A stretch of DNA of 64,000 nucleotides from an uncultured Caproiciproducens sp. (GTDB lineage: Bacteria; Bacillota; Clostridia; Oscillospirales; Acutalibacteraceae), in assembly GCF_963664915.1 (NCBI RefSeq), contig NZ_OY761810.1, forward strand, positions 2,866,661 through 2,930,660, read 5' to 3'. The stretch's first letter is position 1. Every line of letters starts with the position of its first letter. Position numbers and translations under genes: made by a program. Under the pieces are notes generated by a model. That model was not told the origin of the DNA. It worked only from the letters and a program-made list of their open reading frames with translations, and ran no database searches. Positions 3,180 through 59,955 of this stretch are shown here, piece by piece.

Positions 3180-4400
3180 TTAAGCATCCATCGCCTCGCT
3201 GAAGAACTTGTTATGCACCGCCGTGACAGCCTTGTCGGCGTCGGAACGGTCAATTAAAACTGAAATCTTAATCTCACTGGTAGCAATCATCTGAATGTTG
3301 ACATTTGCTTCAAACAGAGCTTCAAACATTTGCGCAGCCGTACCGGGATGAGTTTCCATTCCAGCGCCCACAATGGAGACTTTGGCAACATTCTCATCGT
3401 ATACCACACTTGTCGCACCGATCAGTTCCACGTAAGGATTCAAAATGTCAATGGTTTCTTTCAGATGCGCCTGACTGACTGTAAAGCTGATATCCTTCGT
3501 TCCGTTTCTTCCCACAGACTGAAGGATGATATCAACATTAATATTTTTTGCGGAAAGCTTTGAGAAGATTTTAAAAGCAAGGCCCGGTCTGTCGGGCACG
3601 CCGATAATCGAAATGCGGGCGACATCCTCGTCTTTTGCAATACCGCTGATAAGCATTTTTTCCACTTTTGTTGCCTCCTTAACAATTGTGCCCGGTTTTC
3701 TTGTCATGCTGGAAAGGACTTCAAGCTGAATACCATACTTTTTTGCCATTTCAACAGAACGGTTATTGAGTACCTGCGCGCCCAACGTCGCGAGTTCAAG
3801 CATTTCATCATAGGAAATGTAGGCCAGCTTTCTTGCATTTTTTACTTTACGCGGATCGGCTGTAAAAACACCTTCCACATCCGTAAAAATCTGACACAAG
3901 TCTGCGTTCATCACCGCCGCGATGGCCACCGCGCTGGTGTCTGAACCGCCCCGGCCCAGCGTCGTCATATCGTTGTAACGGTTAATTCCCTGAAATCCAG
4001 TAACAATAACAATATTTCTTTTATCAAGTTCTTTCTTAATACGATCCGGCACAATACGCTTAATTCGGGCGCTGCCATAGGCCGAGCTGGTATAAAATCC
4101 AGCCTGCCAGCCCAGAAGGGAAACCACCGGATAACCAAGTTTTTCAATCGCCATAGCCAAAAGAGAGGCGGAAATCTGTTCACCGGAAGTAAGAAGCATA
4201 TCCATTTCTCTTTTTGAGGCACACTGATTAATTTCTTTTGCCTTTGCGATTAAGTCGTCTGTCGTATCACCCTGTGCGGACACAACAACAACAATATCAT
4301 TACCCTGAGAATAGGTTTTTGTGACAATATCAGCGACATTATAAACGCGTTCGGCATTGGCTACGGAACTGCCGCCGAACTTCTGGACTATAAGACTCAT
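3180..4400 (-). CDS. lysC: Aspartate kinase
   Basis: A 406-residue monofunctional aspartokinase that phosphorylates aspartate, the first step to lysine, threonine and methionine. The N-terminal kinase domain begins with VQKFGGSSVAN and contains GRGGSDTSAVA (phosphate-binding loop) and TDVEGVFTADPR. Two ACT domains (about residues 265-400) provide allosteric feedback; ISIIGVPDRPGLA opens the first. Length and layout match the lysine- or threonine-regulated class of Gram-positive bacteria. It is the last gene of hom-thrB-lysC, 34 bases after thrB, which ties it to threonine supply. thrC is not in the window. Confidence 0.95.
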   Translation of the reverse strand: MSLIVQKFGGSSVANAERVYNVADIVTKTYSQGNDIVVVVSAQGDTTDDLIAKAKEINQCASKREMDMLLTSGEQISASLLAMAIEKLGYPVVSLLGWQAGFYTSSAYGSARIKRIVPDRIKKELDKRNIVIVTGFQGINRYNDMTTLGRGGSDTSAVAIAAVMNADLCQIFTDVEGVFTADPRKVKNARKLAYISYDEMLELATLGAQVLNNRSVEMAKKYGIQLEVLSSMTRKPGTIVKEATKVEKMLISGIAKDEDVARISIIGVPDRPGLAFKIFSKLSAKNINVDIILQSVGRNGTKDISFTVSQAHLKETIDILNPYVELIGATSVVYDENVAKVSIVGAGMETHPGTAAQMFEALFEANVNIQMIATSEIKISVLIDRSDADKAVTAVHNKFFSEAMDA

Positions 4401-41383: not shown

Positions 41384-41869
41384 TTAATACGTTTTAATGC
41401 CATTGGAAAAGGATTTAACCACCATTCTGCCGTCATCCGTATAAAAATAAACCGTTCTGCCATAATTTAGCCCCGTATCTTCTGCGTATATCCTAATTTG
41501 CAATTTGCTTAAGGTGTTTTTTACTTCGGCAACATTACGCTGACCAATATTGCCGAAGCTTGAATCATCTGCTACTTCAAACATTTTCGCTCCTCCCGCA
41601 ATTTTTGCTACAATTCTCCTTCGGCTGCAACCCAATTTTTCCATTTGAAGTATCATTTCCGGAATGCAGGTATCGGCGAATCTGAAGGGATTCTCTTTTG
41701 GATTGTTAACGGGGAAGGTCGGTAGCATGATATGCCCCAACCCGCCCACTTTTATCACCGAATCATATAAACAAATGCCAACGCAGGAGCCCAGCGCATA
41801 GGTTACAAGCGAATCCGCACATCTGACGACCTTCATATCCGATATCCCGATTGTAAACACATCACTCAT
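41384..41869 (-). CDS. cheD: Chemoreceptor glutamine deamidase CheD
   Basis: A 161-residue CheD. The catalytic Cys29 (ALGSCVGICLYD) and His46 (GGLGHIMLP) are present, with the conserved AKIAGGAKMF and IGQRNV segments. CheD deamidates receptor glutamines and, in Bacillus, binds CheC to tune adaptation. Its start overlaps the cheC stop as ATGA. It is the last gene of the fla/che operon. Confidence 0.96.
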   Translation of the reverse strand: MSDVFTIGISDMKVVRCADSLVTYALGSCVGICLYDSVIKVGGLGHIMLPTFPVNNPKENPFRFADTCIPEMILQMEKLGCSRRRIVAKIAGGAKMFEVADDSSFGNIGQRNVAEVKNTLSKLQIRIYAEDTGLNYGRTVYFYTDDGRMVVKSFSNGIKTY

Positions 41870-42501
41870 AGTTCAATACCCAATTTCTCCATTAATCTGT
41901 TCAGGGAATCGATGGAAGGCACCAGCAGCATATTTGCCGTGACATCTTTATTTCCACTTAAAAAATCGTCCTCTATGAAGATGATTTTATCCGAAACGGA
42001 ACCCATTTCAATAGCCGGTACACTTAGTAATGCCCCCACCATATCCACTGTGATCGCAGGCACAGTAGTTTTCAGATTCATTGCGGAGAGTGTGCCGATA
42101 GACCCGGTATAGGCGGATATCATAATATTCCCAAGCTCGGATATGGCCGAAAGTTCCATCTCGGATAATCTATCGCAGCTGACATCTTTCGCACCAAGCA
42201 GGGATGTCAGCACGGATTTTGCAAAATCCTGCTCAATGATAAACATCATGATCCCTTCGATGTCGCCCCCCAGCTTTGACAAAATACCAATTACAACATT
42301 TTCCGGGCCGCCCAGCAAATTTGCAGCATCGGTGATATTCAGAATTTTAACAATCGGCGTCGTCATATCCACTTCCGCGTCCAGCATTTTTGACAGCGAA
42401 GTAGCAGCATTTCCGGCACCGATGTTACCAATTTCTTTCAGTACATCAATATGCATTTCATTCAGTTGTTCAAGATTTTGGATGGACATCATAAACTCCA
42501 T
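41866..42501 (-). CDS. cheC: CheY-P phosphatase CheC
   Basis: A 211-residue CheC/CheX/FliY-family phosphatase. Both active-site helices are present: DVLKEIGNIGAGNAATSLS near the N-terminus and AISELGNIMISAYTG in the second half. CheC removes phosphate from CheY and is activated by CheD, whose gene overlaps it. In-frame ATGs at 42501, 42492 and 42489 are possible starts; GGAG lies six bases before 42489. Confidence 0.95.
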   Translation of the reverse strand: MEFMMSIQNLEQLNEMHIDVLKEIGNIGAGNAATSLSKMLDAEVDMTTPIVKILNITDAANLLGGPENVVIGILSKLGGDIEGIMMFIIEQDFAKSVLTSLLGAKDVSCDRLSEMELSAISELGNIMISAYTGSIGTLSAMNLKTTVPAITVDMVGALLSVPAIEMGSVSDKIIFIEDDFLSGNKDVTANMLLVPSIDSLNRLMEKLGIEL

Positions 42502-45612: not shown

Positions 45613-46386
45613 CTATTGATTCAAGTATTCCGCCAGATATTTTTTTAGCTTTCTTAATGCACTGGAATGAATTTGTGATACTCTGGAATCACTGATACCC
45701 ATCACATTCGATATTTCTTTAATTTTTAGCTGTTCTTTATAATACAGTGAAATAACAATCTGCTCTTTTTCATTCAAAAGTTCAATATCCTTTGCAAGCA
45801 CAGTTTGCAGCTCTTTTTCCGCTACAACCTGTTCCGGCCCATGGATGGTGTCACCGGCCTGAGTAATCTGAATATTTTCAACGCCTTTTTCATAAACCAT
45901 CTCTTCAAAGGACAGCATGTTCAATACGCAGGTTTCCGCCTGCATCTTTTCATACTCCGGCAGACTGATTTCCAAATAATCTGCAATCTCCTTATCGGTC
46001 GGACTGCGGCTAAGTTGATGGCTGAGAAGACTTTCGGCCTCACTGATATTTTTTGCGATACGCTTGAGTCTTCGGGGAAAACAGTCCTGCTTTCTTATAT
46101 AGTCGATCATAGCGCCCCGTACCTTAATGGAAGCATAGGTTTCGAATTTTACTTTTTTTTCAATATCGAATTTTTCAACGGCATCCAAAAGAGCGATCAA
46201 GCCCTCATTGATGATATCATCCATATAGTTGAAATACTGGTAGCGACCGACTGTTTTAATCGCTATGCATTTTACAATGTAGCTGTATTGAATGACGAGC
46301 AAATTTCGAAGATCAGCATTTCTCGTCTGCTGATACTTTATCCACAAATCCACTGTCGCCATCTGTTCTGTTTCCGTATACTTCAT
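45613..46386 (-). CDS. sigD: Flagellar sigma factor SigD/FliA
   Basis: A 257-residue sigma-28 family factor. Region 2 includes YMDDIINEGLIALLDAVEKF and FETYASIKVRGAMIDYIRKQ; region 3 has SEAESLLSHQLSRSPTDKEI; region 4 has IKEISNVMGISDSRVSQIHS. It directs late flagellar and chemotaxis promoters (TAAA-N15-GCCGATAT), several of which are visible in this window. GGGG lies eight bases before the ATG. It follows flhA directly; the flhF and flhG genes often found here are absent. Confidence 0.95.
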   Translation of the reverse strand: MKYTETEQMATVDLWIKYQQTRNADLRNLLVIQYSYIVKCIAIKTVGRYQYFNYMDDIINEGLIALLDAVEKFDIEKKVKFETYASIKVRGAMIDYIRKQDCFPRRLKRIAKNISEAESLLSHQLSRSPTDKEIADYLEISLPEYEKMQAETCVLNMLSFEEMVYEKGVENIQITQAGDTIHGPEQVVAEKELQTVLAKDIELLNEKEQIVISLYYKEQLKIKEISNVMGISDSRVSQIHSSALRKLKKYLAEYLNQ

Positions 46387-46438
46387 GACAGTCGCCCCTT
46401 CCTTTTAAGTTTAATATTTAACGGTTATGTTAGAGCAT

Positions 46439-48502
46439 TTATTCCAGTGTAACGTTGGCAACTGCCTGAATCTGGACATTTGAGTTCAATTCGTTAAACG
46501 AAAGAACCACCGCATTGGGATAAAACTGTTCCAGCATCTTGCTGAAATAAATTCTAACCAATGGAGACGTTAAGATAATCGGAACATTAATAGCATCCTT
46601 TACTTTCGTGATGCATTCCATCAGCTTCGACACAATTTTCTGTGTTGACTGTGGGTCAAGCGAAAGATAAGTCCCCTGATCATTTTTGCTGATTGAATTA
46701 ATAATGAGTCTTTCTACCTCACTGTCAAGCGTAATAACCCTTATCTGGCCCCCATCGGACCATTTACGGGTAATCGTCCGCTTTAACGACTGCCGTACAT
46801 ATTCGGTCAAAACCTCCAAATCGCGAACCGTAGAAGCATAATCTGAGATGGTTTCCAGAATCGTTTCCATATCCCTGATGGGAACCCCTTCTTTTAACAG
46901 GTTACATAATACTTTTTGCAGTCCGCCAAAAGAAATCGAGCTTGGAATCACGTCGTCCACAATCGTTGAACCGGTTTTTTTGATGGTTTCAAGCAACTGG
47001 TTCAAATCCTGCCTTGACAACAGTTCATGTGCATATTTCTTAACAGTTTCAGAGAGATGGGTCACAACGACGGACAGCGGATCAATAACAGTATAGCCAT
47101 AGATTTCAGCCATCTCCTTCTTGTCCTTGGTGATCCATTTGCTCGGGATTCCATAGGCCGGCTCAATTGTCTCAATGCCGTCAATTGTACCGGTGCGGTT
47201 TCCCGGATCCAAAGCCAGATAATAGTCGACTAAAATTTCGCCGCGGCTGACTTCCTCTCCTTTAACCTTGATGACATACTGATTTGGATTCAGCATACCG
47301 TTATCCCGTAAACGCACGGCCGGAATGACGATGCCCATTTCCATTGCAAACTGCTTTCGAAAGGTAATCAGCCTTTCAATAAAGCTGCTGCCGCTGTTTT
47401 CATCGACAAGGGGAATCAGGCTGTAGCCAAATTCCATTTCAATGACGTCAATTTTCAGCAAATCATAGATATTGTCAATATTCTTGAAGTAATTCGTATC
47501 ATCAGCCTGTTCATCCGCCGTATGAGCCGACTCGGCCTTTTCAGCAACAGCAGCCACAATCTCGTTCTTTTTTCTGATATTGAATCCGGCAAACAACAAC
47601 CCCACAGCTACCAGTAAAATCTGCGGAACCGGCATGCCGGGAATAAAGCAAAGACCAAGCAGAGTAAATCCACTGATAATCATTACGATGGGCTGAGAAA
47701 AAAACTGTCTTGAAACATCCATGCTCAGGCTGGAATCAGACGCGGCGCGCGTTACTATCATGCCGGTCGCGGTTGAAATCATCAAAGCCGGAAGCTGTGA
47801 CACAAGGCCATCGCCGACCGTCGCAATGGAATAGATGTTCAGAACATCCTGAAAAGAGCCGCCCCCCTGAACCATGCCAATCACGGTACCAGCGAGAAAA
47901 TTAATAAAGGTAATGATGATGGAGGCAATCGCATCGCCTTTTACAAATTTAGTGGCACCATCCATGGCGCCGTAAAACTCTGCCTCGCGCTGAATATCAA
48001 CTCTGCGTTGACGGGCTGTCATTTCATTAATCAGGCCGGAACTAAGATCTGCATCAATGGCCATTTGTTTACCTGGCATTGCGTCCAATTTAAATCTCGC
48101 CGACACCTCGGAAACCCGTTCGGCGCCTTTTGTAATTACCAGAAAGTTTACAATGACAATAATGAGAAAGATAATGAAACCGACAACAACATTTCCCTTC
48201 AAAACAAAACTGCCGAAGGTTTCAATGACCTGTCCTGCTTTCCCGGACTGGGTAAGAATAAGCCGGGTAGACGAAATATTAAGCGCCAGACGAAACAGTG
48301 TAGTAATCAACAGCATTGACGGAAAGATGGAAAACTGAAGCGCATCTTTCACGTACATGGTCATCAGCAGAATCATAATCGCTATTGTAATATTTATGAT
48401 AAACATCATATCCAGCAAAAAAGAAGGCAATGGAATGATGATAAATCCGACAATGAGAATGACAAAGATTGCTACAATGTTATTGAGGATCTTCAATATC
48501 AC
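46439..48502 (-). CDS. flhA: Flagellar export gate protein FlhA
   Basis: A 687-residue export-gate protein. The N-terminal half has eight hydrophobic segments and the conserved FHIPEP-type loop, with VVTKGAERVSEVSARFKLDA-like and MPGKQMAIDADLSSGLI sequences. The C-terminal half is the cytoplasmic docking domain with GYTVIDPLSVVVTHLSE. I chose the GTG at 48502: it overlaps the flhB stop by four bases and lies five bases after AAGGAG. The longer open frame to 48532 has no support. Confidence 0.95.
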   Translation of the reverse strand: MILKILNNIVAIFVILIVGFIIIPLPSFLLDMMFIINITIAIMILLMTMYVKDALQFSIFPSMLLITTLFRLALNISSTRLILTQSGKAGQVIETFGSFVLKGNVVVGFIIFLIIVIVNFLVITKGAERVSEVSARFKLDAMPGKQMAIDADLSSGLINEMTARQRRVDIQREAEFYGAMDGATKFVKGDAIASIIITFINFLAGTVIGMVQGGGSFQDVLNIYSIATVGDGLVSQLPALMISTATGMIVTRAASDSSLSMDVSRQFFSQPIVMIISGFTLLGLCFIPGMPVPQILLVAVGLLFAGFNIRKKNEIVAAVAEKAESAHTADEQADDTNYFKNIDNIYDLLKIDVIEMEFGYSLIPLVDENSGSSFIERLITFRKQFAMEMGIVIPAVRLRDNGMLNPNQYVIKVKGEEVSRGEILVDYYLALDPGNRTGTIDGIETIEPAYGIPSKWITKDKKEMAEIYGYTVIDPLSVVVTHLSETVKKYAHELLSRQDLNQLLETIKKTGSTIVDDVIPSSISFGGLQKVLCNLLKEGVPIRDMETILETISDYASTVRDLEVLTEYVRQSLKRTITRKWSDGGQIRVITLDSEVERLIINSISKNDQGTYLSLDPQSTQKIVSKLMECITKVKDAINVPIILTSPLVRIYFSKMLEQFYPNAVVLSFNELNSNVQIQAVANVTLE

Positions 48503-49563
48503 CTCATCTCCTTTTTCAACGAATATACCCATGCCATAATTTCGGCGAGCACCAAATAATATTCCTCCGGAATTTCCCGGTTAACATCAACCGACTTATA
48601 TAAAGCCCTTGCAAGCTGCACATTTTCAGTCATTGGGATCTTGTTCTGCTCAGCTATCTCTATAATTTTCAGCGCCATGTAGTCCTGTCCTTTGGCAACA
48701 ACAATCGGGGCGCCGTTTTTTTCTATGTCGTATTTAAGCGCAACCGCGAAATGAGTCGGGTTTCTTACAATTACGTCCGCGGTGGGTACCTGCTGCATCA
48801 TCCTCTGCATGGAAATCTTACGCTGCCGTTCCTTGATCTTTGCTTTGATCTGCGGATCGCCTTCCATTTGTTTGTATTCTTCTTTAATTTCCTGTTTGGA
48901 CATTTTTATATTTCTCTCATATTCCCACCACTGATACAAGTAGTCAAAAGCAGCAATTAAAATAAACACAAGAGAAAGCTGTATAACAATATCCATAATG
49001 GAATTCAGAATGAACACCACAGCTCCAAAAACGTCTTCAAACATCAGCTTTGTAAAATACTTTGCGATGTTCATAAAGGAAGAATAAAGGATGTAGAAAA
49101 TAACTGAAATCTTTAGCATCGCCTTGATCAGTTCCGTAATGGAACGGAGAGAGAAGAGCCGTTTCATTCCCTGAAAAGGACTTATCCTTGAGAATTTTAT
49201 TTTTAAGTTTTCTTTAGATATCTTAAATTTGGTCTGTACGCCGGTTGCTATAATACCGACTGCTATGGAAGTAAGCATCACCGGACCCGCTAATAAAAAC
49301 AGCGCAATAATCGCATCTTTTGTCACATCCATCGCAAATTCGGCAGTCAGCGCCTGAACGGTCTTCATGTACGCAATGTATTTGGAAAGAAAGCTTGAAA
49401 GGTAATGATACATAAAAGGGATCGCCATTTTCAAGATGATAAAAAGCGACAAGATGGATAGTGCGCTGATTACATCGCTGCTTTGAAAAATATTGCCTTT
49501 TTTGCGCTCATCTTCCCTTTTTTTGGGAGTAGCTTGTTCTGTTTTGCTGCTGTCGGCTGCCAT
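48499..49563 (-). CDS. flhB: Flagellar export switch protein FlhB
   Basis: A 354-residue protein with a four-helix membrane domain and a cytoplasmic domain. The self-cleavage site NPTH starts at Asn268 (VIVRNPTHFAVALKY), followed by APIVVAKGQDYMALKIIEIA. After cleavage FlhB switches export from rod/hook to filament substrates with FliK. Its C-domain is paralogous to the stand-alone protein at 32688-33044. It overlaps flhA by four bases. Confidence 0.96.
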   Translation of the reverse strand: MAADSSKTEQATPKKREDERKKGNIFQSSDVISALSILSLFIILKMAIPFMYHYLSSFLSKYIAYMKTVQALTAEFAMDVTKDAIIALFLLAGPVMLTSIAVGIIATGVQTKFKISKENLKIKFSRISPFQGMKRLFSLRSITELIKAMLKISVIFYILYSSFMNIAKYFTKLMFEDVFGAVVFILNSIMDIVIQLSLVFILIAAFDYLYQWWEYERNIKMSKQEIKEEYKQMEGDPQIKAKIKERQRKISMQRMMQQVPTADVIVRNPTHFAVALKYDIEKNGAPIVVAKGQDYMALKIIEIAEQNKIPMTENVQLARALYKSVDVNREIPEEYYLVLAEIMAWVYSLKKEMR

Positions 49564-52303: not shown

Positions 52304-52546
52304 TTAAATTAATTTCATGATTTCATTATTGCTCAATACTTCTGTAATTCGCACGCCATAAAAATCGTCTACCACGACAACATCCCCTTTAGCAATCCTT
52401 TTGCCATTAACGAAAACATCGACCTGTGAACCGGCCTGCTTATCCAACTCCACAATTGTTCCCGAATTAAAATCCAGGATCTCTTTAATTGGTTTTTTTA
52501 CGCGGCCTATTTCAACAGTAATTTGAAGAGGGACGGACATAATCAT
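52304..52546 (-). CDS. fliY: FliN (SpoA) domain of FliY, separated from its N-terminal half by a frameshift
   Basis: An 80-codon open frame that encodes the C-ring FliN/SpoA domain: SVPLQITVEIGRVKKPIKEI, GTIVELDKQAGSQVDVFVNG and FYGVRITEV. No ribosome-binding site precedes its ATG. The same frame continues upstream to a stop at 52622-52624 and reads YQSFDNEDPVLTSDQNNNLN just before the ATG, which is the linker expected in an intact FliY. The two parts are therefore pieces of one gene rather than separate FliY and FliN genes. Together with FliG and FliM the product forms the switch. Confidence 0.85.
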   Translation of the reverse strand: MIMSVPLQITVEIGRVKKPIKEILDFNSGTIVELDKQAGSQVDVFVNGKRIAKGDVVVVDDFYGVRITEVLSNNEIMKLI

Positions 52547-52548
52547 AT

Positions 52549-53388
52549 TTAGGTTATTGTTTTGATCACTGGTAAGTACGGGATCTTCATTGTCAAAACT
52601 TTGGTAAGAAATTTTCCGACATTATAATTCTGCTGTGGCTCCTGCCGGGCAACCGGCTCAGTCACTACCGGAGTCGGTTCCGGCCTTCTCGCCGCAGGCT
52701 GAGATGCCCTGGTCGGTTCGGGCTGCTGCTGTAAAGGAGGAAGCGACTGTTTGATTGGCTCCGCATGCTTTTTCTCAGGGGCCGCCGTACCAAAGCTGAA
52801 CGATGAAATCAATTCTTTCGCGAGACTTACCGTCAACAGGCTGATAAATTCACTGTTGACCAAATCTCCGATCATCAAATTGAACTTAACGGTGACAACC
52901 TCTTCTTCACTCTTAAAATACTTGCTTTTAAAATGCTCGGAATTATCTATTTGAAAGGAATTGGGCGGTGAAATATTGATCGCCATATTGAGGAATTGCG
53001 AAAGCGCAGTAGCGGATGCACCCATCATCAGATTCATTACTTCGCAAATGGCGCCTATGCTCATCTCATCCATTACGAACTCCTGCTCGGAATAATCGGT
53101 ATGAAGGAGAAGACCCACAATAACTTTTACATCGGATTCTTTCAGAATCAAGATGTTTTTTCCGCTCAGGCCGCTGACATAATTAATTTCGACTGCAACG
53201 GCAGGTTCCATTGATTCAAAATGGACTTGACTGGAAGGTACTACTTCAACATGAGGCGTTGTTATATTTACCCTTTGCTCTAACATTTCTGAAACAGAAG
53301 TCGCGGATGAACCCAAACTAATATTCAGTATTTCTCCTATGGCATCAATGTCCATAGCAGAAAAAGTTTCCTCTTTATTCGGCTCCAT
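52549..53388 (-). CDS. fliY: FliY N-terminal part (CheC-like phosphatase domain), truncated by frameshift
   Basis: About 279 residues. The CheC-like domain has two active-site helices: DAIGEILNISLGSSATSVS and GAICEVMNLMMGASATALS. A Pro/Gln-rich linker follows (about 205-255). The frame then shifts at an AAAA run (52612-52615): the last 20 or so residues here (from about LTKVLTMK) are out of frame, and the true linker and FliN domain continue in the -1 frame. One extra A would restore a FliY of about 370 residues, the normal length. ATG 53388 follows AAAGGTG by six bases. It could be a mutation, an assembly error or programmed slippage. Confidence 0.85.
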   Translation of the reverse strand: MEPNKEETFSAMDIDAIGEILNISLGSSATSVSEMLEQRVNITTPHVEVVPSSQVHFESMEPAVAVEINYVSGLSGKNILILKESDVKVIVGLLLHTDYSEQEFVMDEMSIGAICEVMNLMMGASATALSQFLNMAINISPPNSFQIDNSEHFKSKYFKSEEEVVTVKFNLMIGDLVNSEFISLLTVSLAKELISSFSFGTAAPEKKHAEPIKQSLPPLQQQPEPTRASQPAARRPEPTPVVTEPVARQEPQQNYNVGKFLTKVLTMKIPYLPVIKTIT

Positions 53389-57519: not shown

Positions 57520-57927
57520 TTATAAAATTACGGCTCCGTCAATATTTGTAAATACGTTGTCGGTCATTTCCTGACCGCTCATCGTTGTAACAACCGTGCT
57601 GCTGGGAACATTCACAATAAATGCAGTCTGTCCGTTTAAAATCAAAGCGTCCTTAATTCCTTTTGATTTGGCTTTTTCTACGGCGCCGTTGATTTGGGAA
57701 ACAAGCTGCTGGGAAACCGGAATGTTTCTGGAATCCATACGCTGCAGCGCGTGCTTGGAAAACGTTAGCTGTTGCTGCTGTTCTACAGTTTTGCGAAAAA
57801 GCTGGCCAAATTCACTGTTACTCTGATCGGTTTCACTCGTCTTCTGTGAATTTGTGTTTGCAGGAGTAACCGTATAATTCGGGTTAATTAGCGTGGAATA
57901 GTTCTTTTTAAACTGAATATCGTCCAT
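57520..57927 (-). CDS. Flagellar operon protein, TIGR02530-type
   Basis: A 135-residue conserved flagellar-operon protein between flgD and flgE. The core LTFSKHALQRMDSRNIPVSQ, then QINGAVEKAKSKGIKDALIL and TAFIVNVPSSTVVTTM matches the small family found at this position in Gram-positive operons. No function is known. A Thr/Asn/Ser-rich N-terminal 45 residues is likely disordered. Confidence 0.85.
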   Translation of the reverse strand: MDDIQFKKNYSTLINPNYTVTPANTNSQKTSETDQSNSEFGQLFRKTVEQQQQLTFSKHALQRMDSRNIPVSQQLVSQINGAVEKAKSKGIKDALILNGQTAFIVNVPSSTVVTTMSGQEMTDNVFTNIDGAVIL

Positions 57928-58524: not shown

Positions 58525-59907
58525 TTACATCGAATAGACCTGCTGCCTGAGCTGCTGCATGACGGAAAGAAAATCACTGGTGCTGACGTCGCCGTCCAGC
58601 GAGCTGACAGTATGATTATTATTTTGGCTTTGCCGCTGCTCTTCCTGCTGCTGTGCCTGATTTTGCTGGTTCTGCTGATCCTGCTGATACCATGCCTTTT
58701 CCTGAGCCGGTTCTAAAATCTGCACAGGCTGGCTGACGGTTGTCTGTAGAATGGACCTGATGTCGGAACTGTTCTCCATCAGCATGCTTTGCGTTTTAGG
58801 GTTTGACGCCTGAATCGCAACAGAAAGCACACCGTTTTGCATTGCGAGTTTAACGGACACTTTTCCTAAGTCCTGCGGATAAAGATCCATTTGAAACTGC
58901 GTGTTCCCCGCTTTATAGTTAAGCAGAATTTTGTCGGCTACCTGGTTACAGGTTGTTTTGGCGGCATTTGATGAGGCGTCGGAAATTTTAATAACTACGT
59001 TCCCTGTCTGATACAAGTCTGAAAAACGTGCCGTATCCTGGCTTTGGCTCGAGTTCATCGGAATAACGGTTTTTTCATCAGAAAGAGAAGCATCCTTCGG
59101 TAAAATTTCAAGCACAGCAGCCGAAGAGGATTCACTGATACTGTGCTTCGTTTGTACAGTCGCAGGAGCAGCTTCAGGTTCGACAGACTGCGCTGTAACT
59201 TCCTGTATCTGCACCGCGGGCTGGTCGGTGTTGCTTTTCACATCCGGAATTTTAAATTGTCCGGTATTGTTAGCATCTGAATTTACATTCGCTGTTGCAG
59301 TGGCAGAAACAGCGGCATCAGTAAGAACCGGAGCTTTCTGTAATCCATCGGTTTGAGCGGCGGTTCCCTGCACATTTGCCGCACTTACAGACGAGGCCGC
59401 ATCTGCCATAGTCTGAATAAACGCAGAATCTGTTGCAGGAACGTCAACTGCCGGCTGCTGCGCTGTGCCTACAGTCAAAAGTTGATCTGTCATATTTGTT
59501 TGCGGTTGAATTGTTTGAATGGACGCAGAACCGGTTACCGGAGTGCCGACTGTCAGCTGCTGGGCTGTGTCTGTCGTCAAAAGCGGATCTGCCGTGAATG
59601 TTTGCGGCTGAATTTGCAGGGTCTTAACAAATTCGGGCTGAGACTGCCCGGTTTGGAGCAATTGAGCCAGAAGAGATACATCAACCGCATTGAAAAGCTG
59701 CTGATCTCCGGCGGAACCGTCTGCGCCATCACTGTCTTTTTTCTCTTCATCTTTTGATGAGACGCTTGTATCCGGCTGCACTGCGCTTTTTGAATCCTTC
59801 CCCTGGACTGCCGATTTCATTAAAGATTCAAAGCCGCCCGTACAGTCTTTCGTTTGAGACACACTGGTATTTCGCGGTGCTGTGGTTCGTAAAATTTGCT
59901 CTATCAT
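58525..59907 (-). CDS. fliK: Flagellar hook-length control protein FliK
   Basis: A 460-residue protein. The first 300 residues are low-complexity, Thr/Gln/Ala-rich, with repeated phrases such as IQPQT and TDTAQQLTVGTPV, as expected of a secreted molecular ruler. The C-terminal Flg_hook domain (about 325-405) has LDLYPQDLGKVSVKLAMQ-like sequence and LSVAIQASNPKTQSML. The end is Gln-rich. AAGGAGGTGATAATT precedes ATG 59907, which fixes the start; the open frame reaches 59955. Confidence 0.92.
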   Translation of the reverse strand: MIEQILRTTAPRNTSVSQTKDCTGGFESLMKSAVQGKDSKSAVQPDTSVSSKDEEKKDSDGADGSAGDQQLFNAVDVSLLAQLLQTGQSQPEFVKTLQIQPQTFTADPLLTTDTAQQLTVGTPVTGSASIQTIQPQTNMTDQLLTVGTAQQPAVDVPATDSAFIQTMADAASSVSAANVQGTAAQTDGLQKAPVLTDAAVSATATANVNSDANNTGQFKIPDVKSNTDQPAVQIQEVTAQSVEPEAAPATVQTKHSISESSSAAVLEILPKDASLSDEKTVIPMNSSQSQDTARFSDLYQTGNVVIKISDASSNAAKTTCNQVADKILLNYKAGNTQFQMDLYPQDLGKVSVKLAMQNGVLSVAIQASNPKTQSMLMENSSDIRSILQTTVSQPVQILEPAQEKAWYQQDQQNQQNQAQQQEEQRQSQNNNHTVSSLDGDVSTSDFLSVMQQLRQQVYSM

Positions 59908-59955
59908 AATTATCACCTCCTTCCAAGAATATTTTATAAATAAATTTATAATCAA

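Follow-up and report, generated by a model that had tools for sequence, protein, structure and literature searches.

Introduction

Frame-broken motility genes occur in cultured strains, where a small indel disrupts one gene of an otherwise intact flagellar cluster. The fliY gene of an uncultured Caproiciproducens sp. described here resembles these cases on both counts and differs in that a sequence error remains a candidate cause. The motor switch phosphatase FliY (family model NF005995) combines a CheC-like part with a FliN domain. In B. subtilis, FliY is reported to be required for C-ring assembly and for all flagellar motility, and a fliY mutant was described as lacking filaments (PMC6613710). 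FliN-like pieces can also arise by internal translation, as described for Spa33-C in Shigella and tentatively proposed for FliN* in T. maritima, the latter suggestion being based on recombinant expression of fliY in E. coli (PMC4832279). In those cases, the short product is made alongside the full-length one from an unbroken gene. At the locus presented here, both halves of FliY match the family model in order and fliY comes after fliM, as in C. faecalis, but one base splits the gene into two frames. Here too, a free-standing FliN-type C-terminal piece is conceivable, but the break interrupts the full frame, and no signal for a separate start was observed.

Results

The analysed window comprises 64 kb of a genome that consists of a single contig of 3,125,711 bases (3.13 Mb). 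On its minus strand, fliM (54427-53408, assigned by a match to TIGR01397) is followed by fliY and then by a gene named CheY-like by inspection (52270-51908). Sequence and open reading frames place fliY in two frames. The 5′ part (52549..53388, minus strand) extends from an ATG at 53388 to a TAA at 52549 and encodes 279 aa comprising the CheC-like domain and a proline-rich linker. Its CheC-like repeats are matched in two stretches by Pfam CheC (PF04509, 6.3e-18), and the FliY model NF005995 aligns with it at 1.2e-62 over model positions 27-263 of 376, the score of 212.5 bits being slightly below the cut-off of 218. The FliN (SpoA) part (52304..52546, minus strand; 80 aa from the ATG at 52546 to the TAA at 52304) lies in the other frame, is recognized by TIGR02480 (3.1e-28, over the cut-off) and PF01052 (1.6e-23), and covers positions 300-374 of NF005995. 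As the two matches follow one another along the model, the halves are consecutive pieces of one FliY; in the window, the two domains do not share one open frame as they do in 10 of 11 aligned relatives. The TAA of the first frame (52549..52551, minus strand) is located 2 nt ahead of the FliN ATG. A previous sequence-only reading had described the two frames with a linker peptide running into the FliN ATG, a stop of the −1 frame at 52622-52624, an A4 run at 52612-52615 and a terminus of about 20 residues in the N-terminal frame unlike FliY. All of these features were confirmed, with the last 21 residues before the TAA being off-frame.

Judged by the N-terminal part of FliY, the closest relatives are Ruminococcaceae bacterium UBA2656 (87%), Caproiciproducens faecalis (84%), bacterium MS4 (76%) and C. 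galactitolivorans (74%). The group is not known to include pathogens. The relatives search covered 40 genomes including this one, 14 of which contained a FliN match; in 11 of these, it belonged to a single open frame of 364-435 aa. The remaining three were this genome, G008 (a UBA2656 contig with a run of N) and G029, whose match lies at bases 116-328 of its contig with one TAA counted inside. Ten of the 11 aligned relatives have one open frame throughout fliY, and in the eleventh, L003 (UBA2656), the frame continues past the break site as far as a run of N. Given this alignment, the split in fliY is not a chance feature. Related strains that encode separate CheC-like and FliN proteins with the same A4, named beforehand as a finding that would speak against a broken gene, were not encountered among the relatives examined. 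A split shared with the nearest relative UBA2656 (L003/L017) was apparent only: the run of N where the FliN part begins (L003 near 3840-3855) mimics a split gene, and the break site is open.

The window is one base shorter than the 11 aligned relatives at 52612..52617 (minus strand). An A5 run is absent from this site in all 11, and in the six nearest (L003-L007 and L016) other bases interrupt the stretch matching the A run. Hence, the lost base need not stem from homopolymer slippage. The sequence-only reading had proposed an ancestor with one extra A. Its place and direction of change were borne out, whereas an origin from A5 was not, and one extra A is just one of the possible ancestral states; the break may also have arisen by a substitution and the subsequent loss of an A. 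The emphasis placed on the A run is weakened further by the in-frame A7 run at 52493-52499 within the FliN part, which is longer than the A4. The long repeat tract expected of a phase-variable gene is absent at the switch site, which contains the A4 only.

The 22 linker codons from the break to the FliN ATG (52547..52612, minus strand), to which no upstream start is joined, remain FliY-like when read in the FliN frame and look selected in comparison with six relatives. Synonymous and non-synonymous differences amounted to 11 and 2 over 21 codons for the nearest relative L003, 10 and 5 for L004, 10.5 and 6.5 for L006, and 9.5 and 8.5 each for L005, L016 and L007. Intact relatives compared pairwise give similar values, e.g. 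8 and 7 for L004 and L005. Constraint on the linker in the FliN frame thus appears clear from these comparisons, though not absolute. Compared across the seven sequences, five of the 22 codons are found in the window alone; the residue encoded by each of them recurs at its position in at least one relative. A linker that still looks selected in the FliN frame implies a break that is recent, erroneous or bypassed; together with the codon pattern, it suggests that the FliN frame was translated until recently, or is translated even now.

To distinguish an error from a real mutation, 1.2 Mb of the relative G003 and 0.4 Mb of the relative G002 were compared with 0.8 Mb of this genome by scans that score changes of frame, not in-frame stops. 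Genes were counted at an identity of at least 50% and a coverage of at least 60%, leaving 188 G003 ORFs (9 shadow-like ORFs dropped; two of the 188 are shadow ORFs themselves) and 52 G002 ORFs (5 dropped). The first scans flagged this genome more often, with 11 and then 7 cases for G003 queries and 3 and 3 for G002 queries. After adjacent stretches had been merged and antisense ORFs dropped, 5 changes in 4 genes (G003) and 2 changes in 2 genes (G002) were left. The four flagged cases besides fliY were all inspected and turned out to be two antisense shadows of better conserved intact genes and two start-region artefacts, so that fliY is the sole true internal frame break in this genome among the 188 and 52 genes. 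The reverse comparisons yielded no frame changes in 183 and 52 genes, and comparisons between the two relatives gave uninspected flags in 1 of 95 and 2 of 95 genes. Three of the 77 G003 ORFs with their best match in or touching the window matched in two frames, namely fliY, a start-region artefact and an ORF that by its coordinates is antisense to 57520-57927. The neighbours of fliY align in one frame as full ORFs. With fliY as the only true break among the genes compared, an indel-ridden assembly is ruled out; we infer that zero other true breaks in 63,975 aligned residues would still be compatible with several per genome.

The FliY model matched in at least 154 of 391 genomes of the class. 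Seven matches chosen from those that end short or score low were examined. The matches in G119, G197 and G041 stop 37, 209 and 117 bases, respectively, short of the contig end, hiding the FliN part, and those in G280, G221 and G255 lie in one frame. The fliY gene of G279 (Clostridia; L150 711-1906) changes frame twice after the CheC-like part. Among the matches examined, a split recurring across the class is not supported; the case of G279 indicates that FliY breaks do arise sporadically in other genomes.

Two further observations concern the flagellar genes of the window. A gene that is fliK-like by position and composition (58525-59955, minus strand) shares 46% identity with C. faecalis, compared with 65% and 83% for the adjoining genes. 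At 45613-48532 (minus strand), an flhA-like gene is directly followed by a fliA-like sigma factor gene, both named by inspection. B. subtilis has flhF and flhG between flhA and the sigma factor gene; at this locus in the window, both are absent between the two genes.

Discussion

The comparison establishes that the frame is broken in this genome and that the relatives have an intact gene. The simplest explanation is a recent loss of function by mutation or a mistake in sequencing, and not a new mechanism. We put the chances of a recent one-base deletion in the lineage of the sequenced clone, removing full-length FliY, at about even. According to this scenario, a single base would have been lost recently in the fliY linker and translation would stop ahead of the FliN domain. 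The cell would make a truncated CheC-like protein ending in 21 off-frame residues, and little or no FliN domain. The C-ring would not be completed and the clone would be non-motile, though the remaining flagellar genes of the window appear intact. C-ring failure and loss of motility are predicted because the search of the genome detected FliN-type domains in FliY and FliM and nowhere else, FliMN_C giving two matches in total. CheC-like domains are present elsewhere, in a gene of the window at 41866-42501 and in matches near 1,620,500-1,621,100 of G000. The literature searched, including the available parts of PMC7873966 and PMC7764203, contained nothing on the motility of this strain.

The intact neighbours and the conserved downstream frame would suit a consensus error equally well. 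An intact fliY in the organism, from which sequencing or polishing dropped one base, is a serious contender, close behind the recent deletion though short of an even chance. Even a 3-Mb assembly of good quality may plausibly retain a single indel, and the sequence on either side of the break looks selected. On the other hand, the rest of the compared sample is clean of true frame breaks, and the break site is a short A4 and no long homopolymer, while the A7 run of the same gene is in frame. Indel error, real loss and ribosomal slippage had all been listed as options in the sequence-only reading. The list proved to be right, but slippage gained no positive support. A −1 slip on A AAA would fuse the frames into full-length FliY, and a slip at the AAA codon would enter the conserved linker frame, which looks selected. 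We nevertheless regard it as the least probable of the explanations, and a very improbable one. The heptamer A AAA TTT is common, occurring in phase in 54 of 736 mechanically called ORFs of the sample, and a pseudoknot-free fold of 73 nt downstream looks ordinary (z −0.73; 44 of 200 shuffles as good). The conserved slippery site of a programmed −1 frameshift gene was not encountered, since all 11 aligned relatives keep a single frame across this site and lack the motif. Rfam gave one match well under the gathering score of its family, the promoter and terminator scan gave nothing beyond consensus matches, and titles and abstract openings of the literature searched held no report of a FliY frameshift product.

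A functional split, in which reinitiation from the stop 2 nt upstream yields FliN and the CheC-like part as two proteins, as in bacteria with separate genes, we consider highly unlikely. The short distance between stop and start is suggestive, but in 5 of the 11 intact relatives the shifted frame likewise meets a stop 2 nt ahead of the first FliN ATG, and the gap therefore follows from conserved codons. Moreover, no split occurs among the 11 aligned relatives. The FliN ATG pairs poorly with the anti-SD sequence: at a predicted +2.0 kcal/mol, 97% of 604 same-strand ATGs between 38 and 64 kb are at least as good, and the fliY ATG reaches −4.6 kcal/mol. The pairing test is rough, as fliM (+0.2) and flhA (+0.1), with their starts as called, are also near zero. 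Within these bounds it agrees with the earlier claim that the FliN part has no ribosome-binding site of its own, and none was found at the FliN ATG for an internal start of the Spa33-C type. The possible FliN-like product that McDowell et al. suggested to arise from T. maritima fliY by internal initiation (PMC4832279) keeps a two-protein reading alive at low probability. More broadly, it is highly unlikely that the split is natural and tolerated. Reinitiation or slippage on A AAA would then provide some full-length FliY or a FliN piece, and the strain would swim with the CheC-like and FliN parts of its C-ring present largely as separate proteins.

If the deletion is real, the sequenced clone is predicted to be non-motile, which would be useful to users of the strain; if it is an error, the sequence record needs correction. 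A strain that is motile despite the split would newly inform whether the two parts of FliY must be joined.
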